Source of the DNA: a virus
Direction: 5' to 3' (one strand)
Length of the DNA: 34,684 nt
Virus record (IMG/VR): IMGVR_UViG_3300048838_000203
Location: 1-34,684 of that record
Part shown: positions 12,718-30,180 of the stretch, one piece after another
Layout: each line of letters opens with the position of its first letter
How positions within the stretch are numbered: position 1 is the stretch's first letter
Made by a program: the position numbers and the translations under genes
The notes under the pieces: generated by a model
What the model was told of the DNA's origin: nothing
Seen by the model: only the letters and a program-made list of their open reading frames with translations
Databases searched by the model: none

Positions 12718-12902
12718 AAGCACCAGAACCGAAGGGCAAACTCGAAATTGTGAAGGATATCCTGAACAGCAAGAAAATGCTGAAAAATCTTATATGGGCG
12801 GCTCTCGCTCTCGGTCTCGTTGCCCTTATCCTCGCCCCGAAATCATGCCCTACGCCGTGGGGTGAGTACAAGCAGGGCCCTATCTGGTCAGGTAGCAAAT
12901 GA
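12711..12902 (+). CDS. Small single-span membrane protein, candidate holin
   Basis: The 63-residue protein has a charged N-terminus (VKAPEPKGKLEIVKDIL), then one hydrophobic span (NLIWAALALGLVALILAP, residues about 26-43) and a short tail with a single cysteine just after the span. It follows the endolysin gene, overlapping its end, and has GGAGGCAGC upstream of its ATG. Size, topology and position fit a single-span holin; no sequence signature proves it. Confidence 0.65.
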   Translation: MVKAPEPKGKLEIVKDILNSKKMLKNLIWAALALGLVALILAPKSCPTPWGEYKQGPIWSGSK

Positions 12903-13288
12903 ACCTCCTGTACAAAACAACGCTCTCGCTCCTGCTCATGGGTATCGCGTTCCTCGGCGGCTGGTTCGCCCACATGAAAACGCAGTCTCCGGAAATACGC
13001 ATTGATACACGGAAAGAGATCGTGTGGCGTGATAGGGTGGTGTACCGTGATTACCAGTCCATAACGAGAGAAGACTGTATTACTCAATTACAGTGCTACG
13101 ATACCGCAAAACCTACGCTTGATATTGCTCCCATGAGAGATAACGAGTTCCGGCTGTCGGCTGGACTCTGCGAGCGCATCTGGACACGGGACGTATCTTT
13201 ATCTGTCGGAGAATCCGGAAACTGGAAATACTACATAGGCGCTGGCGTTATTGTCGGGGCCGGACTATCATATATGCTATTACGCTAA
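12899..13288 (+). CDS. Membrane protein with two spans, last gene of the lysis block
   Basis: The 129-residue product has an N-terminal span (LSLLLMGIAFLGGWFAHM, residues about 9-26), a soluble middle part with a charged IVWRDRVVYRDY strand and three cysteines, and a C-terminal span (YYIGAGVIVGAGLSYMLL). It overlaps the previous gene by 4 bases and is followed by the operon terminator. A spanin-like or holin-accessory role is possible, but no lipobox or long periplasmic coiled coil is present, so I leave it open. Confidence 0.65.
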   Translation: MNLLYKTTLSLLLMGIAFLGGWFAHMKTQSPEIRIDTRKEIVWRDRVVYRDYQSITREDCITQLQCYDTAKPTLDIAPMRDNEFRLSAGLCERIWTRDVSLSVGESGNWKYYIGAGVIVGAGLSYMLLR

Positions 13289-13343: not shown

Positions 13344-13422
13344 GACACTTCTCTGGGAAACTGCCGGAAAATAAAAAAGTGAATTTTTTTCCAAAAAAAC
13401 GCAAAAAAACATTTGTTTAGTA

Positions 13423-13451
13423 TTGACATCTTGATTGCTTTGATATATATT
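13423..13451 (+). promoter_or_regulatory. Early promoter P1
   Basis: TTGACA (13423-13428, perfect), a 17-base spacer and TATATT (13446-13451) form a strong sigma-70-type promoter. It follows the late terminator and faces the first early gene at 13493, which has a GAGGTGAAGGG ribosome binding site. The -10 lies inside a perfect palindrome, so the promoter is probably repressible. Confidence 0.92.
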
Positions 13452-14512: not shown

Positions 14513-15165
14513 TGGACAACAGCGAATCAAAAAAAATCTATCCTGCAATGATTGCAGTATTGAGAGATACGGGAGCAATCACCAAGGATAAAAAAAACCA
14601 GCAGCAGGGATATAGCTTCCGCGGAATAGATGATGTGTATAATACGCTTCACCCGCTGTTCGCAAAACACGGCATTTTCGTGTCAACTGAAGTGTCGAAC
14701 GTGTCCAGGGAGGAGCGGTCAGCGAAGTCAGGGGGCGTTCTCCTGTACACAACCCTTGATCTCAAAGTATCGTTTTACGCAGATGACGGAAGTAGCGTAT
14801 CTACTATTACACGCGGGGAAGCGATGGACTCCGCAGACAAGTCTACAAATAAGGCCATGAGTGCGGCGCTGAAATACGCGATCATGCAAACGTTCCTCGT
14901 ACCAACAGAAGAGCTGCAGGACGCAGACGCAACAACGCCTGATCCGGCGCCGAAACCAGAGCAGCCAAAAAGCCAGCCTCAAAAACAAGACATTCCGGCA
15001 GGCGACATGAAGTTTTTTGTCAATGCTCTCAACACGGCAAAGGACATGGCTGAGCTGATGTCGCTGTGGCAGCAGCACCTGAAGTTTGCCTGGTCTCCTG
15101 CTCAGGAAGAGGAAATCAAGGCGAAATTTGGCATACGCAAAAACGAGATGAAGGGGGCGGCATAA
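14512..15165 (+). CDS. erf: ERF-family single-strand annealing protein
   Basis: The 217-residue product carries the ERF signature: KIYPAMIAVLRDTGAI and GYSFRGIDDVYNTLHPLFAK in the first 60 residues, EVSNVSREERSAKSGGVLLY in the middle, and STNKAMSAALKYAIMQTFLV followed by an acidic EELQDAD. ERF proteins anneal complementary DNA strands in phage recombination and often circularise or concatemerise the genome. A proline/glutamine linker (PKPEQPKSQPQKQ) joins a C-terminal helical domain of about 50 residues. ATG at 14512 has GGGGGG upstream; GTG at 14509 is adjacent. SSB lies downstream in the same early operon. Confidence 0.88.
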   Translation: MDNSESKKIYPAMIAVLRDTGAITKDKKNQQQGYSFRGIDDVYNTLHPLFAKHGIFVSTEVSNVSREERSAKSGGVLLYTTLDLKVSFYADDGSSVSTITRGEAMDSADKSTNKAMSAALKYAIMQTFLVPTEELQDADATTPDPAPKPEQPKSQPQKQDIPAGDMKFFVNALNTAKDMAELMSLWQQHLKFAWSPAQEEEIKAKFGIRKNEMKGAA

Positions 15166-15683
15166 TGTATACTGAGAAAATTAACGCAAATATGCGGCAC
15201 CTGGGAACAGAGATTGCGGAGTGGAGTGCGGGAACTGCGTTCTGCGACAAGGAAAGCGGGGAAGTGCGCTTCGGAATCCCGGAGGACTATACACACGCAA
15301 AGACGCTGTATAACACAGACGCAACCTGTGAGCTATGCGGGCACAAAATCAAGCACGGCTATGTGATAACCCATGAGGGAAAAAAGCTGTGGATGATAGT
15401 TGGATCGGAGTGTGTTACTCATTTTTCTGATAAATCAGGGAAGCAGATTGAGGAGGAGGCAATTCTCGAAGTTACGCGGGACTACTACAATACCGTGCTG
15501 GAAGCGATACGGGATATGCCCATGGGTTCCCCCGAAGGCAGTGAGCTGAGAAAGTATATCAAGCGCCGCCTGTACGTGCGGGAACAGCCGAAGACTCACT
15601 ATTTCCATGCCTGGAACAACAGGGAGCAGATCAACAAAATATTAATTACTGTAAGGAGGACGCATGACACAGAAGGAAAATGA
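15165..15683 (+). CDS. Early protein with zinc-finger-like cysteines
   Basis: The 172-residue protein has CELCGHKIKHGYVI around residues 53-66 and IVGSECVTHF about 15 residues later, which could bind a metal. The rest is charged and helical (KYIKRRLYVREQPKTHYFHA). ATG at 15165 overlaps the ERF stop and follows GGGGGCGG. A longer upstream start would lie entirely inside the ERF gene and is rejected. Its position after ERF suggests DNA metabolism, but the function is unknown. Confidence 0.7.
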   Translation: MYTEKINANMRHLGTEIAEWSAGTAFCDKESGEVRFGIPEDYTHAKTLYNTDATCELCGHKIKHGYVITHEGKKLWMIVGSECVTHFSDKSGKQIEEEAILEVTRDYYNTVLEAIRDMPMGSPEGSELRKYIKRRLYVREQPKTHYFHAWNNREQINKILITVRRTHDTEGK

Positions 15684-15930
15684 AGTTAAAGCGTGTTTTA
15701 ATTGTCAGCACAGGCACCCCTGTGCTGTTAAGTACGCATTAAAAGAGTTCGGGAGGATTGCTGGACACGTAACCGGTGATTTGCGTATCACCTCTAAAAT
15801 CGGTGATGTGATCGCTGATAACTGTGTGATGTACGAGAAAATGGAGCACGATATGGAGCACGATGCAGAAAGCTCTATTGAGATGCGGGAGCGGGAAGCC
15901 ATTGAGGACAGACTCGCGGGGGGTATGTGA
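15664..15930 (+). CDS. Small cysteine-containing early protein
   Basis: The 88-residue product starts [20 protein letters not shown], with a CxxC plus HxxC set that could hold a metal, and ends in a very acidic and methionine-rich helix ([20 protein letters not shown]). AAGGAGGA lies directly upstream of ATG. It overlaps both neighbours. No known family is recognised. Confidence 0.65.
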
Positions 15931-16475
15931 TGCATATCGAAATCAAAAACAGATATACTTGCACTATCATTTTTGCCGGCGAATATGAATCCGTTAAAGA
16001 TGCCGTCACAGGCGCTTATCTCGCAGGCGCTAATCTCACAGACGCTGATCTCACAGACGCTGATCTCATAGGCGCTGATCTCAGATACGCTGATCTCAGA
16101 TACGCTGATCTCAGAGACGCTAATCTCAGATACGCTAATCTCAGAGGCGCTAATCTCAGAGACGCTGATCTCGCAGACGCTGATCTCAGAGGCGCTAATC
16201 TCATAGGCGCTGATCTCGCAGACGCTGATCTCAGAGGCGCTATCGGAGCACCATATACAATATTTATATGTGGGTCACGACATGATGTGTGGACTGATGG
16301 TGATATTATCAAGATAGGATGTGAGGTATATAATGTCGATGAGTGGGTAAATCAATATTGCGAGATCGGAAGAGCTAACGGGTATTCTCCCGATGAGATA
16401 TCAGAGTACAAAGCCTATATCGATCTGTGTTCGCAATTTGTGCCGAAAAAAGCAACCGATAGTGAGGTAGCGTGA
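15930..16475 (+). CDS. Pentapeptide-repeat protein
   Basis: The 181-residue protein has a short N-terminal domain ([20 protein letters not shown]), then fifteen repeats of A(D/N)LxxA-type pentapeptides (residues about 29-103) and a C-terminal domain ([20 protein letters not shown], then [12 protein letters not shown]). Such repeats fold into a right-handed square beta-helix; some members mimic DNA and protect gyrase, others have unknown roles. The C-terminal domain is of a type seen in other phage pentapeptide proteins. The start ATG overlaps the preceding stop. Confidence 0.88.
16014..16238 (+). repeat. Fifteen tandem 15-bp repeats within the pentapeptide gene
   Basis: The unit is GCT(G/A)ATCTC followed by six variable bases such as AGAGAC, AGATAC, ATAGGC or GCAGAC. 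The first nine bases are nearly invariant although synonymous codons would be allowed, so the repeats spread by recent slippage or recombination. Repeat number is likely to vary between relatives. Confidence 0.95.
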
Positions 16476-16756
16476 TGATATACACATGCAAGAATGAACA
16501 TGTATTTAATCGGAAATTTGACGCATGCCCGATATGCGGAGAGAGAGCAGTGCTCACCGTTGCGGAAATGATGGAGCAGAAGATTGAACAGGCCATAGCA
16601 GATGAAGAGGCGAAACGCCCCTATGAAGAGCTTCCCTGTGATGATCTTCCAGATCCTATAGAGCTTGAAGATGGTACTGTGGTGTACCCACCGAAGAACA
16701 GGTGGGATTGGGAGCGGTTCGTACTCAGAAAACGCCGTGAACTGGAGGCCGTGTAA
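16475..16756 (+). CDS. Small zinc-ribbon-like protein
   Basis: The 93-residue protein starts IYTCKNEHVFNRKFDACPIC, giving C, H and a CxxC pair, as in a rubredoxin-like zinc ribbon. The middle is an acidic helix and loop (EELPCDDLPDPIELEDG) and the end is basic (WERFVLRKRRELEAV). ATG at 16475 overlaps the previous stop as TGATG. The function is unknown. Confidence 0.65.
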   Translation: MIYTCKNEHVFNRKFDACPICGERAVLTVAEMMEQKIEQAIADEEAKRPYEELPCDDLPDPIELEDGTVVYPPKNRWDWERFVLRKRRELEAV

Positions 16757-16938
16757 TGGCGAAGGTATATTTGCGGAATGTTCCACATCATAGTTTTGTG
16801 AATTGTTGTCATGATAAAGATATGAATCCATGCTACTTCTACGGAAGCGCGCCACTAAAGTGTCCCAGGGATAAAACTGGATCGTTGTTATGTGGAGAAA
16901 AAGATACAGTTTATAAATTTGTGAAACGTGAGGAATAA
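16756..16938 (+). CDS. Small cysteine-rich protein
   Basis: The 60-residue product (AKVYLRNVPHHSFVNCCHDK, then CPRDKTGSLLCGEKD) has five cysteines and a cluster of histidines, suggesting metal binding. It starts at the end of the previous gene (GTAATGG) and ends just before SSB. No family is recognised. Confidence 0.6.
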   Translation: MAKVYLRNVPHHSFVNCCHDKDMNPCYFYGSAPLKCPRDKTGSLLCGEKDTVYKFVKREE

Positions 16939-16939
16939 T

Positions 16940-17338
16940 ATGGCTAACGATATCAATAGGGTAATACTCATAGGGAGACTCACTAAAGACCCCGAACTGA
17001 AGTACACACAAAACGGCTCATCAGTGGTAAACTTCACCATCGCAAACGGACGGACTTACACTGTTTCCGGCGACAAGAAAGAGTACACTTCGTTTTTCAA
17101 CTGTATCGCATGGAGTAAACTCGGTGAAGCTATTGCACAGTATTGCAAGAAAGGTCAGCGTGTAGGGCTGGAAGGCAGATTGCAGCAGCGCACCTGGGAC
17201 GACAAGGACGGCAACAAGCGTTCAGCGGTAGAAGTGGTTGTGGACACGTTCCAATTTCTTGACGCGAAGAAGAGCGGGGAAGGGAAAGAGCCGGAAGTTC
17301 CGGATAATCCTTTCTCGAGTGACAATATACCATTTTAA
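16940..17338 (+). CDS. ssb: Single-stranded DNA-binding protein
   Basis: The 132-residue protein is a clear bacterial-type SSB: INRVILIGRLTKDPELKYTQ, then SSVVNFTIANGR, TSFFNCIAWSKLGEAIAQY, KKGQRVGLEGRLQQRTW and EVVVDTFQFLDAK form the OB fold. The C-terminal tail ends SSDNIPF, close to the DDDIPF tip through which SSB recruits partner proteins. It coats single strands during replication and annealing by the ERF protein. GAGGA lies 5 bases before ATG. Confidence 0.96.
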   Translation: MANDINRVILIGRLTKDPELKYTQNGSSVVNFTIANGRTYTVSGDKKEYTSFFNCIAWSKLGEAIAQYCKKGQRVGLEGRLQQRTWDDKDGNKRSAVEVVVDTFQFLDAKKSGEGKEPEVPDNPFSSDNIPF

Positions 17339-17353
17339 AGATGAGGATACCAC

Positions 17354-17836
17354 ATGAAGGATTTCAAAATATGCAGAGAGTGTAACGAGAGAAAGACGAT
17401 AGACGAGTTCTATGCAAATAGTGGGATGAAAGACGGGCACCTTAACAAGTGTAAAGAGTGTGTTAAAAAGAATGTCCGAGAAAACTACTATAAAAACCAT
17501 GAATATTATCAAGAATACGAGAAAAGTAGACGTGACGATCCAGAACGACTAAAGGCGAGAAGGGAGCACTCAAGATATTTAAGGAAAAACGAGCCGGATA
17601 GATATAAACTGTACCAAGATAAATATTGTCATGAGAAGAGGGCAGCTACCAATATGGTTAATAACGCAATCAGGGATGGTAGACTACAAAAACAACCGTG
17701 TGCGATATGTGGTGATAAAAAGGTAGAGGCTCACCACTATGATTACAGTAAACCACTTGATGTAATATGGCTTTGTAAAAAGCATCATTCTATGATCCAT
17801 CGGAAGGATGACAGTATAGTACAAGAAATAGCATAA
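17354..17836 (+). CDS. HNH endonuclease-like protein with N-terminal zinc finger
   Basis: The 160-residue product has an N-terminal CxxC...CxxC finger (ICRECNERKTIDEFY then NKCKECVKKN), a basic helical middle, and a C-terminal HNH-type module: PCAICGDKKVEAHHYDYSKP followed by VIWLCKKHHSMIH. The paired CxxC and CxxHH cysteines hold a structural zinc and the AHHYD histidines would be catalytic. Such genes are often free-standing homing endonucleases in phage genomes or serve in packaging; here it follows SSB, far from terminase, so a homing role is more likely. Confidence 0.82.
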   Translation: MKDFKICRECNERKTIDEFYANSGMKDGHLNKCKECVKKNVRENYYKNHEYYQEYEKSRRDDPERLKARREHSRYLRKNEPDRYKLYQDKYCHEKRAATNMVNNAIRDGRLQKQPCAICGDKKVEAHHYDYSKPLDVIWLCKKHHSMIHRKDDSIVQEIA

Positions 17837-17845
17837 GGAGGACAC

Positions 17846-18193
17846 ATGTTTCACGAGAAAGTAAGACTTGAAAGCTTAAAAGATGGTGCAGTTTTAGAAG
17901 TTGGCAATAAAATACTTCCGGAGATCATAGAAAACTTCTACGATGAAGAAACAGATTTTTACGAAAAAAGAGAGTTGATCCTCAAAATAGAATTCAAGGC
18001 CAGCAAGGTCGTTGAAAACCTCATCCACGTCAGCGTAAAAGCCGACAGAAAACTCGCTCCGAAGATTGTCGATGGCGGTGTGTGCCGAAGAGGTACAGAA
18101 GATGGTGAACTCGGGTTGTTTAGTGAGACCGGGGAACAGCTCGATATGCTTAATGACAAAGTTCGCAGTATAAGGATAGAAGGCCAGGCATAG
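17846..18193 (+). CDS. Early protein of unknown function
   Basis: The 115-residue acidic protein (FHEKVRLESLKDGAVLEVGN near the start, KIEFKASKVVENLIHVSVKA in the middle) has a strong AAGGAGGAC ribosome binding site shared in style with the HNH gene before it. Beta strands dominate. It is the last protein gene before the tRNA. I recognise no family. Confidence 0.65.
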   Translation: MFHEKVRLESLKDGAVLEVGNKILPEIIENFYDEETDFYEKRELILKIEFKASKVVENLIHVSVKADRKLAPKIVDGGVCRRGTEDGELGLFSETGEQLDMLNDKVRSIRIEGQA

Positions 18194-18247
18194 CTATCAT
18201 GCACCCTCCTGCGCTGTTGGCCGGATCAGCGTTAAAATTCGGCCCAT

Positions 18248-18319
18248 GCCGGTGTAGCTCAGTGGTAGAGCGGCTGTCCTGTAAACAGCTTGTCAGGGGT
18301 TCGACTCCCTTCTCCGGCT
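18248..18319 (+). tRNA. tRNA-Thr (anticodon TGT)
   Basis: A complete cloverleaf: 7-bp acceptor GCCGGTG/CTCCGGC, D arm GCTC-AGTGGTA-GAGC, anticodon stem GCTGT/ACAGC with loop CCTGTAA (anticodon TGT at 18280-18282, reading ACA), T arm AGGGG-TTCGACT-CCCTT. Two oddities are seen: base 33 is C rather than the near-universal U, and acceptor pair 6:67 is U-U. CCA is not encoded. It would supply threonine tRNA for the ACA codon in phage genes. Confidence 0.88.
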
Positions 18320-18324
18320 CATAG

Positions 18325-18422
18325 CCCCGAACAGATGCCTTGCACTCATCGGGGACACCGCGAAAGCGGAATCATATTAACAATCTATTTGTTTGGTTAT
18401 AGAAATAGTAACAGCTTGTTAA
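18325..18422 (+). ncRNA. Structured RNA segment between tRNA-Thr and terminator
   Basis: Three nested or sequential stems lie in this 98-base non-coding stretch: CCCCGA/TCGGGG (18325-18330 with 18349-18354), CCGC-GAAA-GCGG (18358-18369, a GNRA tetraloop), and TTAACAA/TTGTTAA (18377-18383 with 18416-18422) enclosing CTATTT/AAATAG (18385-18390 with 18403-18408). It is probably co-transcribed with the tRNA and ends at the following terminator. No known RNA class is recognised; it could be a processed small RNA or a spacer between tRNA and terminator. Confidence 0.5.
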
Positions 18423-18423
18423 A

Positions 18424-18465
18424 CCCGGCGGGGGCGCTCAACCCGTTCCTGCCGGGACACTTTTT
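18424..18465 (+). terminator. Terminator of the early operon
   Basis: CCCGGCGGG (18424-18432) pairs with CCTGCCGGG (18448-18456), allowing one G-U pair, around a 15-base loop; ACAC and five T residues follow. It closes the early operon after the tRNA and precedes promoter P3. Confidence 0.75.
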
Positions 18466-18494
18466 AGAATTATTTCGACATGGAAATAAAAAAG

Positions 18495-18523
18495 TTGACG
18501 ATATGAAGAAAATATATTATATT
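18495..18523 (+). promoter_or_regulatory. Promoter P3, upstream of the pseudoknotted RNA
   Basis: TTGACG (18495-18500), a 17-base spacer and TATATT (18518-18523). Transcription should start near 18530, producing the structured RNA and, on read-through, the replication operon. I see no other promoter between here and 24630. Confidence 0.92.
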
Positions 18524-18529
18524 AAATTA

Positions 18530-18636
18530 TCATTGAGAATAGGCGCAACACCTGAACTTGCGCGTGATTTCAATCACAAGCCTTTTGTTGGTAGCGTTCA
18601 GGCCGGGAAACCGGGCTACCGGCAAAAGGCTTTTTT
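18530..18636 (+). ncRNA. Candidate structured RNA with pseudoknot (small RNA or leader)
   Basis: From the predicted start to the T run this transcript is about 107 bases. Stem P1 GCGCAA/TTGCGC (18543-18548, 18558-18563) has a 9-base loop. Stem P2 GTGAT-TTCA-ATCAC (18564-18577) follows with no gap. Stem P3 is composite: AAGCCTTTTG/CAAAAGGCTT, a 2x2 internal loop, GGTAGC/GCTACC, a 7-base one-sided bulge and CCGG-GAAA-CCGG with a GNRA loop. The bulge GTTCAGG (18596-18602) is an exact complement of CCTGAAC (18551-18557) in the P1 loop, giving a 7-bp pseudoknot. The ATG of the next gene lies 7 bases after the T run. I recognise no known family. Confidence 0.75.
18578..18636 (+). terminator. Terminator at the end of the pseudoknotted RNA
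   Basis: The 10-bp stem AAGCCTTTTG (18578-18587) with CAAAAGGCTT (18623-18632) runs into six T residues (18631-18636). It stands between P3 and the replication operon, so that operon should depend on read-through or antitermination. Confidence 0.85.
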
Positions 18637-18642
18637 ATTTCC

Positions 18643-18756
18643 ATGAAATGTCCATTGTGTAAATCTGATCTTCAGGAAGTACCGAGCAAAACACACATTA
18701 TCTTTAAATGCGTGAAGTGCTCATATACCGAAAGCAAGAGGAGAGAAAAGGAATGA
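18643..18756 (+). CDS. Zinc-ribbon miniprotein
   Basis: The 37-residue product has two CxxC knuckles (MKCPLCKSDL and FKCVKCSYTE) separated by about 14 residues, a classic zinc ribbon, then a basic tail. It lies immediately after the terminator with no clear ribosome binding site, so its translation may depend on the folded leader. It overlaps the next gene as ATGA. Confidence 0.65.
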   Translation: MKCPLCKSDLQEVPSKTHIIFKCVKCSYTESKRREKE

Positions 18757-18989
18757 TAATGAGATTATTGGGAGCACTTAAAGCATTACATGGCGATATT
18801 GCTAACGCAGAAAAAAAGTTTACAGACTCGAAATATGAACTATCGGGACGGGGATTTGCAAATCTCTGCAGCAGCTACAACGGGAAAACGAATCTTGCAT
18901 ATTACCTGAAGAAAGTAAGGCAGTCCAGAAATCAGTCAAAGAAATATCCGGATTGGAAAACCAGAACACCGAAGAGGGCAACTGCATGA
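18753..18989 (+). CDS. Small basic protein upstream of the replisome organizer
   Basis: The 78-residue protein (RLLGALKALHGDIANAEKKF, then LAYYLKKVRQSRNQSKKYPD) is basic and helical. ATG at 18753 follows AGGAGAG with 7 bases between. A longer upstream start (18708) would overlap the zinc-ribbon gene and is unlikely. It overlaps the replisome organizer by 4 bases. The function is unknown. Confidence 0.65.
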   Translation: MIMRLLGALKALHGDIANAEKKFTDSKYELSGRGFANLCSSYNGKTNLAYYLKKVRQSRNQSKKYPDWKTRTPKRATA

Positions 18990-19813
18990 AAAAGTATTAC
19001 TGGCTTAAAATTGGAGAACACTTTTTTGAGGACGATAGAATAATATATCTCGAATCACTCGAAAACGGTGAGAAGTACGTTCTTGTGTGGATCAAACTTT
19101 TGTTAAAATGCCTGAAAGACAAAGATAACGGGGAGTACGGTCTTCTCAGGTTCAGCGATAAAATACCGTATGATGATACCCTTCTTTCGAAAGTACTTAA
19201 ATGTGATATAGATACTCTCCGTGTAGCAATGAAAATATTTGCAGAACTCGACATGATAACGATACTGGAAGACAAAACAATATACATTGAGTGTGTCCAG
19301 AAGCTTATCGGCAAGGAATCCAACAGCGCAGAACGTGTAAGAATACACCGAGAACGGAAAAAACTCATAGAAAACCGTAACAAAGTAACAAAGTGTAACG
19401 TTACATGTAATGCCAATAAAGAAGAAGAGATAGAAGTAGAAGAAGAGATAGAGAAAGAGCTGCGCAAAGACGCCTCTGTAAATGAACTCGTTAATCACTT
19501 CTATGATCTCATAAAAGAGAAAGTGCAACCACCATCATTCAAAAACAAAAAACCGAATCTTAATAGCTGGTATGATGATATTGAAAAGCTCCACAGGATA
19601 GATGGTGCAACCATTGAAGACATCCGATGTGTCATGGAGTATGTAGTGACTGATGAATTCTGGAAGAATAATGTATTATCTGGTGATAAGCTTCGGAAGC
19701 ACTATGACCGGCTATTTCTTCAGTACAAGAAAAACAAGCCTGAACCAGAGGAAACCATGGAAGAGCGCCTCGCCCGTATCGACAGAATGAAAGCGGAGGG
19801 TACCTGGCTATGA
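18986..19813 (+). CDS. Replisome organizer (phage replication initiator)
   Basis: The 275-residue product starts KKYYWLKIGEHFFEDDRIIY and continues EKYVLVWIKLLLKCLKDKDN and GEYGLLRFSDKIPYDD, the signature of the phage replisome organizer N-terminal domain, a winged-helix origin-binding module (residues about 1-120). A glutamate-rich linker (EEEIEVEEEIEKEL) follows, then a C-terminal helical domain (residues about 165-255) that may contact the helicase loader. ATG at 18986 overlaps the previous stop and follows GAGGG. Origins for such proteins often lie inside or beside the gene; I see no clear iteron array here. Confidence 0.85.
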   Translation: MKKYYWLKIGEHFFEDDRIIYLESLENGEKYVLVWIKLLLKCLKDKDNGEYGLLRFSDKIPYDDTLLSKVLKCDIDTLRVAMKIFAELDMITILEDKTIYIECVQKLIGKESNSAERVRIHRERKKLIENRNKVTKCNVTCNANKEEEIEVEEEIEKELRKDASVNELVNHFYDLIKEKVQPPSFKNKKPNLNSWYDDIEKLHRIDGATIEDIRCVMEYVVTDEFWKNNVLSGDKLRKHYDRLFLQYKKNKPEPEETMEERLARIDRMKAEGTWL

Positions 19814-20370
19814 ACGTAAATGAATTTCTCATAAAGATTGAAAACCGATATGGTAAGCCGAAGAATGATTTCTTCCTCGATGATATCCGGGACTACCTGA
19901 ACAGTATCAATGTCGATCTCGAAAGGCTCTATGATGCTATCAGGGACAATCACGAGTATGAATCAATCCCGAACCGATACCGGATAAAAGAAATTTGCGA
20001 GAAGCACTTAACGTCACGCCCCCACGGGGAAGCCCGCCCCACATGGGACGAAATGAAGCGGGAAGTCATGAATATTACCAGGGGGAAAAGCATACCGGAA
20101 ATTGTCAGGCTAATTGTCAGGATTAAAGACAATTTTCACTCGGTAACCCCTCGTCAAATGGTGTTTCTGGACACGTATGATCTTCTCGCGTACCATTATC
20201 ACAGGATGATAGATGATACAGGAGACGAGCAGAGAGCAATACAGTATTGCAGGGCGATAAGGGAACAGATAGATGCAGGGCAGCCTGTGGACTTAGGCCC
20301 TGCTGTGAATATACCAGTAAGTAGTCAAAGGCATGGAAGGACGGTATTGGCGAGTGAGCTTTTCTCATAA
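19810..20370 (+). CDS. Replication-associated protein of unknown type
   Basis: The 186-residue product follows the replisome organizer with a 4-base overlap, where phages usually have a helicase loader. It is helical (VNEFLIKIENRYGKPKNDFF, then PEIVRLIVRIKDNFHSVTPR) but has no Walker A motif, so it is not a DnaC-like ATPase. It could be a non-ATPase loader or a helicase-binding protein. The stop codon TCATAAC coincides with the left box of attC-like site A. Confidence 0.65.
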   Translation: MNVNEFLIKIENRYGKPKNDFFLDDIRDYLNSINVDLERLYDAIRDNHEYESIPNRYRIKEICEKHLTSRPHGEARPTWDEMKREVMNITRGKSIPEIVRLIVRIKDNFHSVTPRQMVFLDTYDLLAYHYHRMIDDTGDEQRAIQYCRAIREQIDAGQPVDLGPAVNIPVSSQRHGRTVLASELFS

Positions 20371-20431
20371 CTGAACAGGGTAAGCGACGTGCGATAGCAT
20401 GTGCGAAGCGAACGCCTGACCGTTGTTATAT
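20365..20431 (+). other. attC-like integron site A
   Basis: The arrangement is 7-base box TCATAAC, 6-base spacer, 9-base arm GGGTAAGCG, a central region with GACGTGCG, arm CGCCTGACC (7 of 9 pair with the left arm, counting a G-U), 3-base spacer and box GTTATAT. The order R''-spacer-L''-core-L'-spacer-R' and the asymmetric 6/3 spacers are those of integron attC sites and are shared exactly with site B. The stop codon of the gene at 19810 lies in the left box. Confidence 0.65.
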
Positions 20432-20496
20432 GCTGTGCCGGGCATGACAGAATAAAGGCGGTGGAGGCCACGGATGGCCGGAACCGATGGAGACAG

Positions 20497-21348
20497 ATGA
20501 AGTTAATAAGAGTATTTCCACGAAAAACAAATGCCACTCCGGACGATGAGAATGTCAGATTTTCAGAGCCGGGATTATTTGATGAGGCGGACGAGGTGCG
20601 TGTTTCTGTAACGTGGACGTGGGATAAACAGAGAGGCGAAGAATTGGCCGAGGCGTGGAGAGGGTTGACAAGCAAGGTTTCAATCGGAGGCCCTGCGTAT
20701 GATGATCCGGGCGGGGAGTTTGAGCCGGGGATGTATGTCAAGCATGGATATGTTATGACGAGCCGAGGGTGTCCGAATAAATGCTGGTTCTGTTCTGTAC
20801 CGAAAAGAGAAGGAGGTATTCGTGAACTTAAAATTAGAGAGGGGTTCAATATTCTTGATAGTAATTTACTTGCTTGCAGTCGGGATCATATTGAGAGGGT
20901 GTTCAATATGCTTGATCGACAACATGAAAAAGCACGATTCACGGGTGGACTTGAAGCGGCGAGGATGAAACCGTGGATTGCCGAGCGGTTGAGGGAGTTG
21001 AGGCCGCACGTTGCATATTTTGCATACGATACACCGGATGATTATGAGCCGCTTGTGGATGCCGTTAAGATGTTGAGGGATGCCGGAGCTTTATATGATC
21101 GTGTTTATTCGTGCTATGTTTTAATTGGATATAAAGGTGACACGATTGAGAAAGCAGAACGCAGATTGCAACAGGTATTAAAGCTGGATGTTATGCCGAT
21201 GGCCATGCTATTTAATAAAGCAGAAGGTAAAGATGATCGGAGTCAATGGATTAAATTCCAGAGGGAATATGCTAACCGGATTATTGTTGGTTCTAAATTA
21301 ACAGCCGCCAGGACGGCGGCTCAACAAGAGGCCCGGCATTGCATATAA
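20497..21348 (+). CDS. Radical SAM enzyme, in an integron-like cassette
   Basis: The 283-residue protein has the radical SAM cluster motif CX3CX2C in MTSRGCPNKCWFCSVPKR near residue 95, preceded by VSIGGPAYDDPGGEFEPGMY and followed by LDSNLLACSRDHIERVF and FTGGLEAARMKPWIA, then YVLIGYKGDTIEKAERRL. These enzymes use a 4Fe-4S cluster and SAM to start radical chemistry; the substrate here is unknown. ATG at 20497 has GGAG 4 bases upstream; the longer frame back to 20401 crosses the attC-like site and is rejected. The gene fills the interval between attC-like sites A and B and its stop lies in ATATAAC of site B, as in integron gene cassettes. Confidence 0.82.
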   Translation: MKLIRVFPRKTNATPDDENVRFSEPGLFDEADEVRVSVTWTWDKQRGEELAEAWRGLTSKVSIGGPAYDDPGGEFEPGMYVKHGYVMTSRGCPNKCWFCSVPKREGGIRELKIREGFNILDSNLLACSRDHIERVFNMLDRQHEKARFTGGLEAARMKPWIAERLRELRPHVAYFAYDTPDDYEPLVDAVKMLRDAGALYDRVYSCYVLIGYKGDTIEKAERRLQQVLKLDVMPMAMLFNKAEGKDDRSQWIKFQREYANRIIVGSKLTAARTAAQQEARHCI

Positions 21349-21425
21349 CGTGGTTGCTTATGTGACGTGCCGTTAGGCATGTGGCGTAGCCCGGAGCAAA
21401 GCGGAGCACATAAGCTCAGTTATAT
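21343..21425 (+). other. attC-like integron site B
   Basis: ATATAAC (21343-21349), 6-base spacer, GCTTATGTG (21356-21364), 42 bases, CACATAAGC (21407-21415), 3-base spacer, GTTATAT (21419-21425). Both arm pairs are perfect complements, 7 and 9 bp. GACGTGC begins 21 bases after the box start, exactly as in site A. The boxes differ from the textbook RYYYAAC/GTTRRRY at one position. The radical SAM stop codon lies in the left box. Confidence 0.75.
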
Positions 21426-21477
21426 ATCGTTGTTGGCATCGTAGTACAAGAGAGTGAAAACAGGAGGTTGTAACGAC

Positions 21478-21852
21478 ATGAGAGAGATTAAGTTCCGTGC
21501 GTGGAATAAGAATGAAGATTGTTTTTTTTATTGGAATACATCATTTGCTTTTGGCGGTATCGGTAAAGTATGGGGAGAGATAGAACAATTCACAGGCATG
21601 TATGATAAGAACGGGAAAGAAATTTATGAGGGTGATATTTGCAAAGTTGATGATGGGGATAATATCTATGAAGTTATTTTTTACATGGGCGGTTTTAGGC
21701 TCGCTGTTTTACCTCGGAAAATAAGAGTTTATGATATAGGAAGTGGTTTTTTAAAAAATATTGAAGTTATCGAGACCACTTATAAGTTTATGGACACAGC
21801 GAAGCAGGACGCTGAGCGCAAATCTGAAGAGTTAGCCAACAATGGTATATAA
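21478..21852 (+). CDS. YopX-family phage protein
   Basis: The 124-residue product opens REIKFRAWNKNEDCFFYWNT and contains QFTGMYDKNGKEIYEGDICK, the two hallmark segments of YopX proteins common in phages of many hosts; their function is not established. ATG at 21478 has AGGAGGT 9 bases upstream. The gene begins after attC-like site B and its stop TAA lies in another ATATAAC box (half site C), so it looks like a second captured cassette with a damaged right end. Confidence 0.85.
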   Translation: MREIKFRAWNKNEDCFFYWNTSFAFGGIGKVWGEIEQFTGMYDKNGKEIYEGDICKVDDGDNIYEVIFYMGGFRLAVLPRKIRVYDIGSGFLKNIEVIETTYKFMDTAKQDAERKSEELANNGI

Positions 21853-21876
21853 CAGGGTTTACACGAAGTACGTCAC
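21847..21876 (+). other. Truncated attC-like half site C
   Basis: ATATAAC (21847-21853) again carries the stop codon of the preceding gene. A 6-base gap, TACACGAAG and TACGTCAC follow, the last resembling the GACGTGC core of sites A and B at a similar offset. No matching right arm or GTTATAT box is found downstream, so only the left half seems to remain. Confidence 0.4.
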
Positions 21877-21904
21877 AATATATCCTCAAAAGGAGCATAC
21901 ACGA

Positions 21905-22153
21905 ATGATTACAGAACTACCACCCGTAGACAGCAAAGTATCAAAGATGGCGCTTGATCTCCTGAACAAAGGTAAGCGCAAATTCGAGAGGGAGAGCTCT
22001 ACCTGCTACCGCTGCAAACAGCAAGTAATTACCCGTGACATGGTGGTAGTGGAGCGTATTTCCAGAGGATCCCGGCGCCGGTATTCTGTCAGGTGCTGCA
22101 GGGAGTGCGCGTGTGTGCTTCACAACTCCGGAATATGGGGATCCATAGCATGA
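21905..22153 (+). CDS. Zinc-finger miniprotein
   Basis: The 82-residue protein has a CxxC pair in TCYRCKQQVITRD and a second CCRECAC set near residue 65, with a basic ISRGSRRRYSVR strand between, typical of small zinc ribbons that bind nucleic acid. ATG at 21905 has AAGGAG about 10 bases upstream. It ends at TGA overlapping the next ATG. Confidence 0.68.
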   Translation: MITELPPVDSKVSKMALDLLNKGKRKFERESSTCYRCKQQVITRDMVVVERISRGSRRRYSVRCCRECACVLHNSGIWGSIA

Positions 22154-22590
22154 AAGCCACGGTGGTTAAGAAATCAGGAGGACTCTTCCCCGTTGCACCT
22201 TCAGACATCGATAAGCTCAATAAATACGCGAACGGGGAAATAATCGAAGTCAGTCACAGGAAAGCCAGGTTCTACCCGCTTTTGCAGAAATATTGGGCGC
22301 TCTGTAATATGATCGCACAGAATGCGAAGGCACACGAAGACTTTGAGTGCCTGAATACCAGGGAGCTGGTAAGTGAGTATATTAAGCTGAAAGTCGGACA
22401 CATTGACAGCCGGATAGTGATACGTGACCATGTTCACATAATCACAAAGTCAATCAGCTATTCAGCGATGGATCAGGATGAGTTCAGCGAGTTTTTCGAT
22501 AAGGCGGTAGATGTAATGTCAGCACTATCCGGAATACCGGTTCATGATTTACTGCTGAACTGGGCTGAATATGAGTGCGGCGTACAATAA
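22150..22590 (+). CDS. DUF1367-like phage protein
   Basis: The 146-residue product contains LFPVAPSDIDKLNKYANGEI followed by VSHRKARFYPLLQKYWALCN, the pattern of DUF1367 proteins (a handful of basic residues, then FxxLLxxYW). These occur next to RusA and Nin-type recombination genes in many phages; their role is unclear. Here RusA follows two genes downstream, in agreement. ATG overlaps the previous stop (ATGA). The upstream start at 22093 would lie inside the preceding gene and is rejected. Confidence 0.75.
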   Translation: MKATVVKKSGGLFPVAPSDIDKLNKYANGEIIEVSHRKARFYPLLQKYWALCNMIAQNAKAHEDFECLNTRELVSEYIKLKVGHIDSRIVIRDHVHIITKSISYSAMDQDEFSEFFDKAVDVMSALSGIPVHDLLLNWAEYECGVQ

Positions 22591-22607
22591 AACACCGGAG
22601 GTAAAAT

Positions 22608-22718
22608 ATGCTTAAAAAAATCAAATCACTTCTCTGTATCTGGATCACAGGACTCACTCCTACAGAGATTGAGTGTAACTACCAGAGCAGGGAGTATTAC
22701 CGTGCAAAAGGTAATTGA
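22608..22718 (+). CDS. 36-residue protein before rusA
   Basis: The short ORF (MLKKIKSLLCIWITGLTPTE, then NYQSREYYRAK) has CCGGAGGTAAAAT upstream of its ATG, a strong ribosome binding site, which supports translation. Its end overlaps the rusA start by 17 bases, so it may couple rusA translation. No function is recognised. Confidence 0.5.
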   Translation: MLKKIKSLLCIWITGLTPTEIECNYQSREYYRAKGN

Positions 22719-23046
22719 TATCGACAATATACTTCTTGCTTCGATCAACAGGAAGTACCGGGTTTCTCAGGCAGGCGGGAAGTGGATACTCACACGGCAA
22801 TACCGTGACATGAAAAAACTGCTCACCATGGTGTCAAAGAAAGGGAGACTGGACCCGCCGTACAGGATCGATATTCAAATGCAGACGTTTATAGATATCG
22901 ATAACCCGGTGAAGTGCATACAGGACTCACTACAGGCGGCGGGAATTATTGACGATGACATGAATGTGCTTCAGCTCAATGTAACGAAACATCCGCTCCC
23001 GAAAGGAAAACCAGGAAGGCTCGTTGTGTATGTGGGGACGGTATGA
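22702..23046 (+). CDS. rusA: RusA-family Holliday junction resolvase
   Basis: The 114-residue protein ends with the RusA signature: DIDNPVKCIQDSLQAAGIID followed by DDMNVLQLNVTKHPLPKG and a final strand RLVVYVG. The conserved aspartates (D-x-D-N and the IIDDD set) bind magnesium for cleavage of four-way junctions made by recombination or replication. GTG at 22702 has GGGAG 7 bases upstream and is the best start; the frame from 22669 lacks one. It overlaps the next gene by 4 bases. Confidence 0.85.
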   Translation: MQKVIDIDNILLASINRKYRVSQAGGKWILTRQYRDMKKLLTMVSKKGRLDPPYRIDIQMQTFIDIDNPVKCIQDSLQAAGIIDDDMNVLQLNVTKHPLPKGKPGRLVVYVGTV

Positions 23047-23324
23047 AGGTCCAGCTCTGCGAAATGTGCCACTATAGGTTAGCAGAACACTTTCACCACC
23101 TGTTCCCGCAGACGAAACGGAATAAGGCATTGTATCCTGAATACATTCACCACCGGGACAATGGGCAATTTCTCTGTTCAATTTGTCACTTAAATAAGTC
23201 AGTAAAGCATTGGAGTGAATTGGAATTTTGCAAGCACTTTGGAATAAAGCCGCGATCAAAAGAACTACTCTTTAAGGTCTCGCAGGGTAGGGTAGAAAAA
23301 TTCTGGCAAGAGGTGATACTATGA
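23043..23324 (+). CDS. HNH-like zinc protein
   Basis: The 93-residue product has VQLCEMCHYRLAEHFHHLFP at the start and DNGQFLCSICHLNKSVKHW in the middle: two CxxC pairs framing an HH-x-F-P, like the His-Cys core of HNH nucleases. The typical catalytic asparagine step is not obvious, so nuclease activity is uncertain. It directly follows rusA with a 4-base overlap and is likely part of the recombination group. Confidence 0.65.
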   Translation: MKVQLCEMCHYRLAEHFHHLFPQTKRNKALYPEYIHHRDNGQFLCSICHLNKSVKHWSELEFCKHFGIKPRSKELLFKVSQGRVEKFWQEVIL

Positions 23325-23473
23325 ATGATTTACTCGTTTTATTACTGCTGTTTGTCGTTTTAGCTGGAACCGCTGAATACATGGAGCGGAAACGTGCGAA
23401 GCGTGAAGAGGTTTTCAAGCAATACCGTGAACACGTCCAGGCAAAGATGATCCGCAAGCGGGGCCGGTCATGA
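23321..23473 (+). CDS. Small membrane protein
   Basis: The 50-residue protein has an N-terminal span (LLVLLLLFVVLAGTAEY) and a basic helical tail (RKRAKREEVFKQYREH). AAGAGGTG lies upstream of ATG. It overlaps the next small membrane gene by 4 bases. The function is unknown. Confidence 0.55.
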   Translation: MNDLLVLLLLFVVLAGTAEYMERKRAKREEVFKQYREHVQAKMIRKRGRS

Positions 23474-23604
23474 CTTCTTACGAAGCTGTGATATGCGGTG
23501 ATATGCTCATGAGGTATATTCTGGTAGATGTCGCCATGATACTGTGTATGGTTGCCGGGTTTATCGGTTTCATCGCAGGAATAGTACTTTTGAAAAGAAC
23601 ATAA
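23470..23604 (+). CDS. Small membrane protein
   Basis: The 44-residue protein has one long hydrophobic span (LVDVAMILCMVAGFIGFIAG) near its C-terminus and overlaps the previous small membrane gene as ATGA. The two may act as a pair. The function is unknown. Confidence 0.5.
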   Translation: MTSYEAVICGDMLMRYILVDVAMILCMVAGFIGFIAGIVLLKRT

Positions 23605-23608
23605 AGAG

Positions 23609-23854
23609 ATGGGTCTAATGGCGAGATTACACGATATACCGAAAAACGATAGAGAGCAAGCGAAGAAAGAAAGAAGACGTGTATATGATTATTATTTGGG
23701 ATATTCTAAAAGAGGTAGCAGGAGGGGAACGAAAAAAATAGCGATGTCGATTGTATTAATATCTTATGATCTCGGAAAATTTAAAAATAATTCAATTGAT
23801 GAATCCATGAAAATTATAAAACGAGGCTTAAATGGGCAGAAAAAAGGGTTATGA
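23609..23854 (+). CDS. Small basic protein of unknown function
   Basis: The 81-residue product (RLHDIPKNDREQAKKERRRV, then SKRGSRRGTKKIAMSIVLIS) is strongly basic and helical, and could bind nucleic acid. ATG at 23609 or 23618 are both possible. It overlaps the following zinc protein by 23 bases. It is more AT-rich in its second half than its neighbours. Confidence 0.55.
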   Translation: MGLMARLHDIPKNDREQAKKERRRVYDYYLGYSKRGSRRGTKKIAMSIVLISYDLGKFKNNSIDESMKIIKRGLNGQKKGL

Positions 23855-24029
23855 ATCAGGACGTATCAGGGCTATCATCTTCGATTGCGGGTGTGGCCAG
23901 ACCGTCACAGTCCCCATGGAGGAGCTGGAATTCTGCCTGGAGGACGGCTTCGCGGTTATTCCTGATCGCTTCACCTGTAATGATTGTATTATCGCAGAGA
24001 AGAGATCGGAGAAGGGGGTGAGCGCGTGA
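23832..24029 (+). CDS. Zinc-finger miniprotein
   Basis: The 65-residue product has FDCGCGQTVTVPMEELEF and FTCNDCIIAEKRS, giving CxC and CxxC cysteine pairs about 27 residues apart, a likely zinc site. It overlaps both neighbours. It is one of several such miniproteins in the replication operon. Confidence 0.6.
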   Translation: MGRKKGYESGRIRAIIFDCGCGQTVTVPMEELEFCLEDGFAVIPDRFTCNDCIIAEKRSEKGVSA

Positions 24030-24202
24030 TGTTTGGAAATAGAGGTTCCTCGATGTTGTGTCCAGAATGCATATCACACATGATTGAACTCATATCAGAT
24101 GAACATATTGAGGTTTACCAGTGTAGACTGTGCCATATTCTGGCAATCAAAAACATTGAGATAGCAGAAGATGTAAGACTCTATAGACCAGCAGACGAGT
24201 GA
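24029..24202 (+). CDS. Zinc-finger miniprotein
   Basis: The 57-residue protein carries SSMLCPECISHMIELI and VYQCRLCHILAIKN, two CxxC knuckles about 25 residues apart. ATG at 24029 overlaps the previous stop and follows GAAGGGGGTG. The function is unknown. Confidence 0.6.
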   Translation: MFGNRGSSMLCPECISHMIELISDEHIEVYQCRLCHILAIKNIEIAEDVRLYRPADE

Positions 24203-24210
24203 GGATAAAA

Positions 24211-24495
24211 GTGAATACAATCTACAACCACAATGTCGAAAAAATTATTTCCGATCTCTACACTATATACAATCACTTCGGTAAAGAGAACCAGATCAAT
24301 AAGCTCGCTGAAGAATGTGTGGAGTATCTGGAAAGCTATATCACGAACAGAAAAGAGAGTTATGATCCTGAAGAGGTTGCAGATGTGCTTGTGGTGGCGT
24401 TACAGTTGGCTTTTAATGATCCTGAGGTAGCGCAGGCGGTGAAAGACAAGATTGCGCGGACCATTACAAGGATAGGGGAGGGGTACTATGAATAA
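24211..24495 (+). CDS. MazG-like NTP pyrophosphohydrolase
   Basis: The 94-residue helical protein has the metal-binding motif EExxE...ExxD of MazG-type enzymes: KLAEECVEYLES followed 20 residues later by DPEEVADVLVVALQLAF. These enzymes hydrolyse nucleoside triphosphates to monophosphates, either cleaning odd nucleotides or lowering alarmone signals during infection. GTG at 24211 has GAGGA 6 bases upstream and is preferred over GTG at 24199. It overlaps the next gene by 8 bases. Confidence 0.75.
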   Translation: MNTIYNHNVEKIISDLYTIYNHFGKENQINKLAEECVEYLESYITNRKESYDPEEVADVLVVALQLAFNDPEVAQAVKDKIARTITRIGEGYYE

Positions 24496-24640
24496 GCAGG
24501 TACCGGTGGAGTGTTATTCCCGTGTAGTGGGGTTCTATCGTCCTTTGAGTCAGTGGAATCCCGGGAAGAAAGAGGAGTACAGGGAAAGAGTTGAGTATGA
24601 TGTAATAGAATCAATGAGACATAATATTGTTGACGCTTAA
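24488..24640 (+). CDS. Stand-alone glycyl-radical C-terminal domain of anaerobic ribonucleotide reductase (NrdD-like)
   Basis: The 50-residue product reads VECYSRVVGFYRPLSQWNPG then KKEEYRERVEY. This matches the extreme C-terminus of class III ribonucleotide reductases (R-V-x-G-Y/F followed by W-N-x-G-K-x-x-E), which bears the glycyl radical; here Gly15 would be the radical site. No catalytic barrel is present. A replacement radical domain, like YfiD for pyruvate formate-lyase, would be one idea. The -35 of promoter P5 overlaps its last codons. Confidence 0.75.
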   Translation: MNKQVPVECYSRVVGFYRPLSQWNPGKKEEYRERVEYDVIESMRHNIVDA

Positions 24641-24658
24641 ACATGCGTGTAGTACATT
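24630..24658 (+). promoter_or_regulatory. Late promoter P5, head and packaging genes
   Basis: TTGACG (24630-24635), a 17-base spacer and TACATT (24653-24658). It is preceded by G and has the same -35, spacer and -10 as P6 at 30152, a shared variant that marks both units leading into head genes. It overlaps the end of the NrdD-like ORF. Confidence 0.8.
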
Positions 24659-24687
24659 TGAATAGAGGGAAAATGAAGGAAATTAAG

Positions 24688-24711
24688 ATTACATGATATG
24701 GAATATGTAAT
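24688..24711 (+). promoter_or_regulatory. Inverted repeat in the P5 leader
   Basis: ATTACAT (24688-24694) and ATGTAAT (24705-24711) are perfect complements around a 10-base spacer, about 25-50 bases after the expected transcription start of P5. It could be an operator roadblock or an mRNA hairpin. The rest of the 139-base gap (24641-24779) shows only the AGGAGGAAG ribosome binding site for the next gene. Confidence 0.5.
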
Positions 24712-24779
24712 ATATTTTACGTACAGCGTGGAAGAAAAATCTACGCGCGAATAAAATTAAATCCTGAATAGGAGGAAGT

Positions 24780-25559
24780 ATGAGCGTAATCTATGAACCA
24801 CGCGGGAAGGCCCGCGAATATTCACCGCTTGCATGTAATATTTACATGGGGTGTAATCATGGCTGTAAGTATTGTTATGCACCGAATATCAGATTTCAAA
24901 AAAGGGAAGAATATCTTACGGTAAAACCGAGAAGGAACATTGTGCAGGAGTTCGAGAGGGATTGCAAGAAAAACACCGGTACTGATAAGCAGGTTCTGTT
25001 CTGTTTTATGTCAGACCCTTACAACTCCCTTGAGTCAGAGCTCAGGCTAACAAGAGAATGTCTCAAACTTGCTTTGAAGTATGATATACCTGTAGCAATA
25101 CTTACGAAGAGTAAAACAGTGCTTAATGATATTGACGTAATAAAGCAATTTGGTAGCAAAATACAGGTAGGAATGACTCTTACCATGAATAGCACTGATA
25201 AAAGTATAGAGTGGGAGCCAGAAGCAGCAACGCCAGATGAAAGGATTGAAACTCTCTCAGCTCTTAAAAAAGATGGAGTGAGGACATGGGCTTCTTTTGA
25301 GCCGGTAATATTTCCTGAAGAATCTCTTGCTATTATGGAGAGGTCAATCCCGCATGTTGATATTTACAAAGTTGGGAAGCTTAATAATTTCCAGGGGCTT
25401 GATAAAAATGTTGATTGGGCTGAATTTCTAAGAAAATCCACTGAAATTCTACGGAAAAATGGAAAGCCATTTTACGTTAAAAAGGATTTGAGGGAGGCTG
25501 CTCAATCTATCAAGCTGTATGGAAATGAAGTGTATATGGACGAATTTAACGTAGCGTAA
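24780..25559 (+). CDS. SplB-like radical SAM enzyme
   Basis: The 259-residue protein has the radical SAM motif CX3CX2C in NIYMGCNHGCKYCYAPNIRF (around residues 21-40), then LFCFMSDPYNSLESELRLTR, IPVAILTKSKTVLNDI and VGMTLTMNSTD. This pattern belongs to the COG1533 group that includes spore photoproduct lyase, though members here often have other or unknown roles. It is the first gene behind P5 and has a strong AGGAGGAAG site. Repair of DNA lesions or a modification step before packaging are both possible; the substrate is not visible. Confidence 0.83.
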   Translation: MSVIYEPRGKAREYSPLACNIYMGCNHGCKYCYAPNIRFQKREEYLTVKPRRNIVQEFERDCKKNTGTDKQVLFCFMSDPYNSLESELRLTRECLKLALKYDIPVAILTKSKTVLNDIDVIKQFGSKIQVGMTLTMNSTDKSIEWEPEAATPDERIETLSALKKDGVRTWASFEPVIFPEESLAIMERSIPHVDIYKVGKLNNFQGLDKNVDWAEFLRKSTEILRKNGKPFYVKKDLREAAQSIKLYGNEVYMDEFNVA

Positions 25560-25576
25560 AACGGAAAGCAATCGGT

Positions 25577-25954
25577 ATGCCAGCACCTAAAGGTGGAAAT
25601 AAGGGAAGTTTCAAGAAGGGTAACGGGGGCGGCGGTAGAAAGCCGCTTCCTCCGGAAGTCCGTGAAATATCCAACGCAACGAAACCAGCCATCATTGATG
25701 CATACTGGAAGATCAGCAACCTTCCAGTGTCGGAGATTCAGGCATTTAAACCGGCAACGCTCCTTGAGGCCGGCATCCTTCGCTGCCTTGCCGCATTTGC
25801 AAAAGATGGGAAGACAGATCAGATATCAAGGATATGGGCAGAATGCCATGGGAAGCCGAAAGAGAGCATTGACTTAAATCAAACCGGAGATATGAGCGTT
25901 AAGGTAACGATTGAGAGCGCAGGTACAGGACATAAGGATAAGCCTACCGGATAA
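25577..25954 (+). CDS. terS: Small terminase subunit-like protein
   Basis: The 125-residue protein has a glycine- and lysine-rich N-terminus (GGNKGSFKKGNGGGGRKPLP), then helices (TKPAIIDAYWKISNLPVSEI and ATLLEAGILRCLAAFAKDGK) and an acidic end. It precedes and overlaps the large terminase by 44 bases, the normal place of the DNA-recognition subunit. The basic glycine-rich leader recalls HNH- or DUF5681-type DNA-binding leaders. No helix-turn-helix is certain. Confidence 0.7.
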   Translation: MPAPKGGNKGSFKKGNGGGGRKPLPPEVREISNATKPAIIDAYWKISNLPVSEIQAFKPATLLEAGILRCLAAFAKDGKTDQISRIWAECHGKPKESIDLNQTGDMSVKVTIESAGTGHKDKPTG

Positions 25955-30151: not shown

Positions 30152-30180
30152 TTGACGAAAATTGCACTTAATATTACATT
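30152..30180 (+). promoter_or_regulatory. Late promoter P6, scaffold and capsid genes
   Basis: TTGACG (30152-30157), a 17-base spacer and TACATT (30175-30180), as in P5. AAAGGAGAA follows as the ribosome binding site for the scaffold gene. A T-rich stretch lies just upstream (30116-30150), possibly an UP element. Confidence 0.78.

Follow-up and report, generated by a model that had tools for sequence, protein, structure and literature searches.

What is made from the short segment at positions 18495-18642 of this phage, and does it have a say in the expression of the genes that follow? The window, i.e. the whole 34,684-nt stretch of DNA analysed here, is a 34.7-kb virus record (IMGVR_UViG_3300048838_000203) of an unclassified bacterial virus, in which the identified genes all lie on the + strand, as do the features described below unless stated otherwise. 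The gene content comprises packaging, capsid and tail genes, an M23 endolysin, ERF, SSB, a replisome organiser (Phage_rep_org_N), NinB and a RusA-like protein. When a near-identical fragment (L005) is set aside, the closest terminase relatives are at most 59% identical, and the phage is therefore isolated in the searched collections. The capsid protein had no match in the sampled Spirochaetota or Desulfobacterota genomes. The product encoded after the M23 endolysin (12899-13288) seems to have a membrane segment at each terminus, and its location, reminiscent of a spanin, suggests that the host has an outer membrane. The genome, although small, also encodes two radical-SAM-type proteins (20401-21348 and 24780-25559), and the early operon a pentapeptide-repeat protein (15927-16475) whose DNA repeats also align to L007.

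The segment is bounded on its upstream side by two features that the preliminary description had overlooked. The first is a tRNA-Thr gene (TGT; 18248-18320), recognised both by ARAGORN and by the Rfam tRNA model (63.5 bits), which is the final gene of the upstream operon. The second, T1 (18424-18456), is a hairpin of 13 bp and -24.1 kcal/mol that resembles an intrinsic terminator with a displaced T-run, and by this prediction T1 closes the upstream (ssb...tRNA) operon, i.e. the first early operon. The tRNA gene does not encode CCA (TCA comes next); the SSB/HNH genes precede it and the replication operon follows. A similarity of 17 nt between T1 and the terminator T2 described below was seen, and was judged compatible with chance.

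Thirty-nine bp past T1 lies a sigma-70 promoter (18495-18523) with the -35 box TTGACG (18495-18500), a 17-bp spacer and the -10 box TATATT (18518-18523), for which the start site is predicted at about 18529-18532. Its designation as a consensus promoter is borne out by the sigma-70 weight matrix, which over the whole window ranks it third among all sites of the + strand. The top two, at 13423 and 13993, are both TTGACA-17-TATATT and stand at the head of the first early operon, and the promoter at 18495 is of the same class as these early promoters. It had also been stated that no other promoter is visible for the operon at 18643-24640, and our counts are consistent with this, the sigma-70-like sites there being weak and no commoner than expected (17 found against 22.8 expected over 15000-26000). 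Two further sites may be mentioned: a weaker promoter-like site on the minus strand (TTCTCA-17-TATATT, 18539-18511), facing in the direction opposite to the main promoter from inside the repeat-bounded unit described below, and a TTGACG-17-TACATT promoter ahead of the capsid genes (30152-30180), which is of the same type as one at 24630.

The predicted RNA extends from the start site to the U-run (18529-18636, about 105-108 nt) and is the strongest fold of the window. Its MFE is -51.5 with a shuffle z of -5.5, a value equalled by none of 200 shuffles, and a residual z of -5.25 makes it the most structured 110 nt on either strand of the window, the runner-up having -3.31. The fold consists of two hairpins with a mean pair probability of 0.97. 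P1 (18532-18574) has a stem of 15 pairs in three segments and a 9-nt loop, CACCTGAAC, at 18549-18557. T2 (18578-18632) has an 18-bp outer stem, an energy of -34.1 kcal/mol and an inner hairpin CCGG-GAAA-CCGG (18603-18614), and its 3' end runs into the T6 run of the terminator (18631-18636). The composite terminator hairpin with a GAAA tetraloop that had been proposed is thus present together with its U-run. The two hairpins had been described as abutting, and while both are there, a 3-nt linker (CAC) between P1 and T2 makes them near-abutting. Judged by these folding models, the predicted structured, promoter-driven and terminated RNA is real and well above chance. With Rfam 15 nothing but the tRNA was found at the gathering threshold; matches obtained at relaxed thresholds (mir-208 and others) were rejected as sub-threshold chance matches to the long stem.

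A further element of this RNA is a possible contact between its two hairpins. T2 has a single bulge, on its 5' side, with the sequence GTTCAGG (18596-18602), and this was said to be the full 7-base complement of CCTGAAC in the loop of P1 (18551-18557); the complementarity is indeed exact over 7 bp. Loop and bulge are each unpaired with a probability of at least 0.94, and the complementarity ends exactly at the edges of the bulge, where the next pairs would be A.C and T.C. Since the pairing stops at the bulge boundaries, the pseudoknot can coexist with both stems, as expected of a kissing pseudoknot. For a 9-nt loop and a 7-nt bulge of random sequence, a perfect 7-bp match would arise with a probability of 1.7e-4 if G-U pairs are disallowed and 2.7e-3 if they are counted. 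When phage and prophage DNA (1.67 Mb) was scanned with a descriptor blind to sequence, not one of 122 terminator-like hairpins with a bulge showed another loop-bulge match of at least 7 bp, nor did a Markov control contain any. On these grounds a kissing pseudoknot between the P1 loop and the T2 bulge is plausible.

The placement of the RNA directly ahead of a replication operon agrees with the gene content downstream, which as judged from sequence is of replication type, with Phage_rep_org_N, NinB and RusA-like genes. The key gene is that of the replisome organiser (18986-19813; Pfam PF09681, 1.8e-26; PHROG 4880, 3.5e-53). The first ORF (18643-18756) encodes a Zn-ribbon-like protein of 37 aa (CPLC...CVKC) which had no match in Pfam or PHROG; there is no good Shine-Dalgarno sequence in front of it and its stop overlaps the next start (ATGA). 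Its ATG at 18643 follows the T-run by 6 nt, and not by 7 as had been counted, so any read-through transcript would carry the RNA as its 5' leader. Moreover, as no strong promoter was seen within 18643-24640 itself, the operon's transcripts most likely start at 18495 and continue through T2.

The best explanation, which we hold tentatively and with somewhat less than even confidence, is that the segment specifies a stable terminated leader RNA and that the replication operon lives on read-through past T2. A terminated leader would be recognised by a strong promoter, an intrinsic terminator close by and an operon beyond that has no promoter of its own, and all three are found in the sequence. 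The strong early sigma-70 promoter at 18495 would produce a compact RNA of about 105 nt, folding into P1 and T2, in which the single bulge of T2 could kiss the P1 loop. The majority of transcripts would end at T2 and persist as a stable short RNA, and those polymerases that pass T2, by passive leakage or with the help of a putative antitermination factor, would transcribe the operon at 18643-24640. The kissing contact would presumably render the short RNA compact and resistant, or tune the speed at which T2 forms, with no ligand switch involved. The PR'-tR' region of lambda has such an arrangement of promoter, terminator and read-through-dependent operon. No candidate for an antitermination protein was recognised among the annotated proteins, nor was a binding site identified. 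As the first ORF has no good Shine-Dalgarno sequence, the promoter at 18495 may not be its natural source, and the terminated-leader model leaves unexplained the 16-bp inverted repeat that encloses the unit.

The preliminary description left it at either a stable small RNA or a leader that decides on transcription of the replication genes. A promoter-driven, structured RNA with its own terminator is retained here as the predicted product, and the proposed roles in attenuation, ligand sensing or put-type antitermination find little favour in the sequence and folding models. If the segment worked as a riboswitch or conditional attenuator, ligand binding or the pseudoknot would block T2 and so turn on the replication genes. 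A pseudoknot beside a terminator ahead of an operon is what one would look for, and fluoride riboswitches are described as using an aptamer with a pseudoknot to control a terminator further downstream (PMC11077080). However, the pseudoknot of the present RNA is compatible with T2 and not exclusive of it, nothing besides the tRNA reached the Rfam gathering level, and a strong alternative antiterminator helix is missing: when the 3' arm of T2 was barred from pairing, the best alternative fold had -21.4 as against -49.7 kcal/mol and only short, weak helices. Folding in steps of 5 nt likewise gave P1 first and then T2, with nothing strong in competition. The lack of a strong competing antiterminator makes both a ligand switch and attenuation of the classical kind unlikely, and we consider this explanation improbable to a marked degree.

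Still less can be said for a put-type element that, as in HK022, brings about processive antitermination by RNA alone; we regard this as scarcely probable at all. Two neighbouring hairpins right after an early promoter do recall putL, and the putRNA is about 70 nt long, has two stem-loops and acts on later terminators (PMC9378689). In the present RNA the terminator with its U-run is the second hairpin itself, and it is on this point that the put-like reading fails. In addition, put requires a specific triplex-containing fold that is bound to the beta' zinc-binding domain (PMC9378689), and neither Rfam nor BLAST showed any similarity.

The main rival to the terminated leader is that the segment is an independent small RNA gene, a moron-like unit with its own promoter and terminator that entered, together with the tRNA, at the junction of two early operons and acts in trans, with no control of the replication genes. 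We consider this possible but rather unlikely. T1, promoter, RNA and T2 together form a self-contained unit, and the RNA resembles stable sRNAs in that its predicted 5' end lies only a few nucleotides from P1 and its 3' end is a terminator. It is also in line with this that the recombination/SSB and replication-initiation genes form one continuous run, with no such unit between them, in Enterococcus phage VEsP-1, whose replisome protein marks it as a distant relative. On the other hand, an independent gene would leave the replication operon with no promoter, and the kissing pair would use up the accessible loop and bulge, so that little single-stranded seed remains for any trans activity. Moreover, no homologue was found elsewhere in the phage blastn, the IMG/VR scans or the replisome-organiser loci.

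These searches were as follows. With blastn no homologue was found in phage records, and in plasmids only the tRNA region was matched. Exact matches in IMG/VR numbered 0 for the core 21-mer, 0 for the core 18-mer and 0 for the left-junction 21-mer, and the 4 matches to a gapped loop-plus-bulge pattern were rejected, none of them being this RNA by the model R1 or by fold. The loci of TerL relatives (80 loci, with 46 of their whole virus records searched with R1) yielded nothing, nor did 61 loci of replisome-organiser relatives or 395 Desulfobacterota genomes (787 genomes together with Spirochaetota), and R1, built from a single sequence, could miss distant relatives. The 392 Spirochaetota genomes gave a single match, L096, with an E value of 7e-5 per genome (about 0.03 over the search), which covers the terminator stem only, has neither bulge nor pseudoknot and was set aside as chance or terminator resemblance. 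Across phage records, plasmids, the IMG/VR loci and scans and the 787 genomes no homologue was found in which compensatory changes in the pseudoknot could be sought.

The enclosing repeat, which had also been overlooked, is a perfect 16-bp inverted repeat that brackets the promoter and the RNA exactly. The left arm, CATGGAAATAAAAAAG (18479-18494), abuts the -35 box, and the right arm, CTTTTTTATTTCCATG (18630-18645), spans the U-run and the next start codon, with 135 nt between the arms. No other exact inverted repeat in the window reaches 13 bp with arms less than 400 nt apart, and none of 1000 Markov sequences of the region had one of at least 14 bp. A near-copy of the arm, GGAAAATAAAAAAG, is found at 13366-13379, upstream of the early promoter at 13423, and it is possible that this is a regulatory site shared with the repeat arm; the motif GGA(2-5)TA(4-8)G, chosen after the arms had been seen, occurs 3 times against 0.28 expected. 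Several roles can be envisaged for the arms: they could bind a protein, serve in recombination, pair into an RNA stem confined to transcripts that enter from upstream, or represent a UP element (a possible role of the left arm, CATGGAAATAAAAAAG) and a terminator tract.

One explanation built on this repeat is that it discriminates between transcripts by their origin. Both arms would pair in RNAs coming from the upstream operon, closing off the entire unit, burying the U-run and the start codon and possibly making an RNase III site, for which lambda sib offers a comparison, while RNAs begun at 18495 would lack the left arm and keep the start free. The repeat is perfect and unique in the window, and folding predicts that the enclosing stem does form in the long transcript. 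However, the left arm fits an A-rich UP element as well, the right arm is partly the terminator T-run, transcripts from upstream must pass T1 first, and there is no good Shine-Dalgarno sequence to mask, which makes this explanation improbable. A second explanation is that the repeat bounds an invertible promoter/terminator cassette switched by a recombinase, as for CwpV of Clostridioides difficile, whose imperfect 21-bp repeats lie 195 bp apart and are accompanied by an intrinsic terminator (PMC2784873). A perfect inverted repeat with arms 135 nt apart does flank promoter and terminator, and the weaker minus-strand site (18539 to 18511) would face the operon once inverted. We nevertheless consider inversion highly improbable, since tyrosine and serine recombinases (PF00589 and PF00239) were not detected in the 34.7-kb record, so that a host enzyme would be needed, and the sequence of the second orientation was not found in IMG/VR (left-junction 21-mer, 0 matches).

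Returning to the terminated leader, a more far-reaching form of it would be a switch in which kissing between the loop and the terminator bulge sets the passage through the terminator with neither antiterminator helix nor ligand, and in which the flanking repeat adds a dependence on transcript origin or on DNA inversion. We think such a switch improbable. Control of the replication operon by the leader, if true, would amount to a simple phage switch whose control point is a tertiary contact inside a terminator, and one reporter construct would suffice to test so small an RNA. Were it no more than an ordinary terminated small RNA, this unclassified phage would still contribute an undescribed structured RNA. 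The finding rests on one sequence at present and its general importance is unproven.

The segment can in several respects be compared with known systems. It shares with transcriptional riboswitches that contain a pseudoknot, as described for fluoride (PMC11077080), the placing of a pseudoknot beside an intrinsic terminator with a gene beyond, but differs in having no strong mutually exclusive antiterminator helix and no Rfam match. As with HK022 putL/putR (PMC9378689), the early leader of a phage operon contains two hairpins side by side, whereas here the second hairpin is a U-run terminator and no sequence similarity was found. As in the CwpV switch (PMC2784873), inverted repeats bracket a short regulatory segment that has a terminator, with the gene beyond, but in the present case the promoter is inside the segment, no phage recombinase was found and inversion was not observed. 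In Stx phages, constitutive transcription and termination of PR'-tR' come about as a side effect of late antitermination, and processing then yields the stable sRNA StxS (PMC7873438). This lambdoid PR'-tR'/StxS system is like the present one in its phage promoter, the terminator shortly after it, the short RNA and the downstream operon that depends on read-through (PMC7873438). It differs in that here no Q-type antiterminator or binding site was recognised, replication genes follow in place of late genes, and the RNA of about 105 nt has a predicted loop-bulge pseudoknot.
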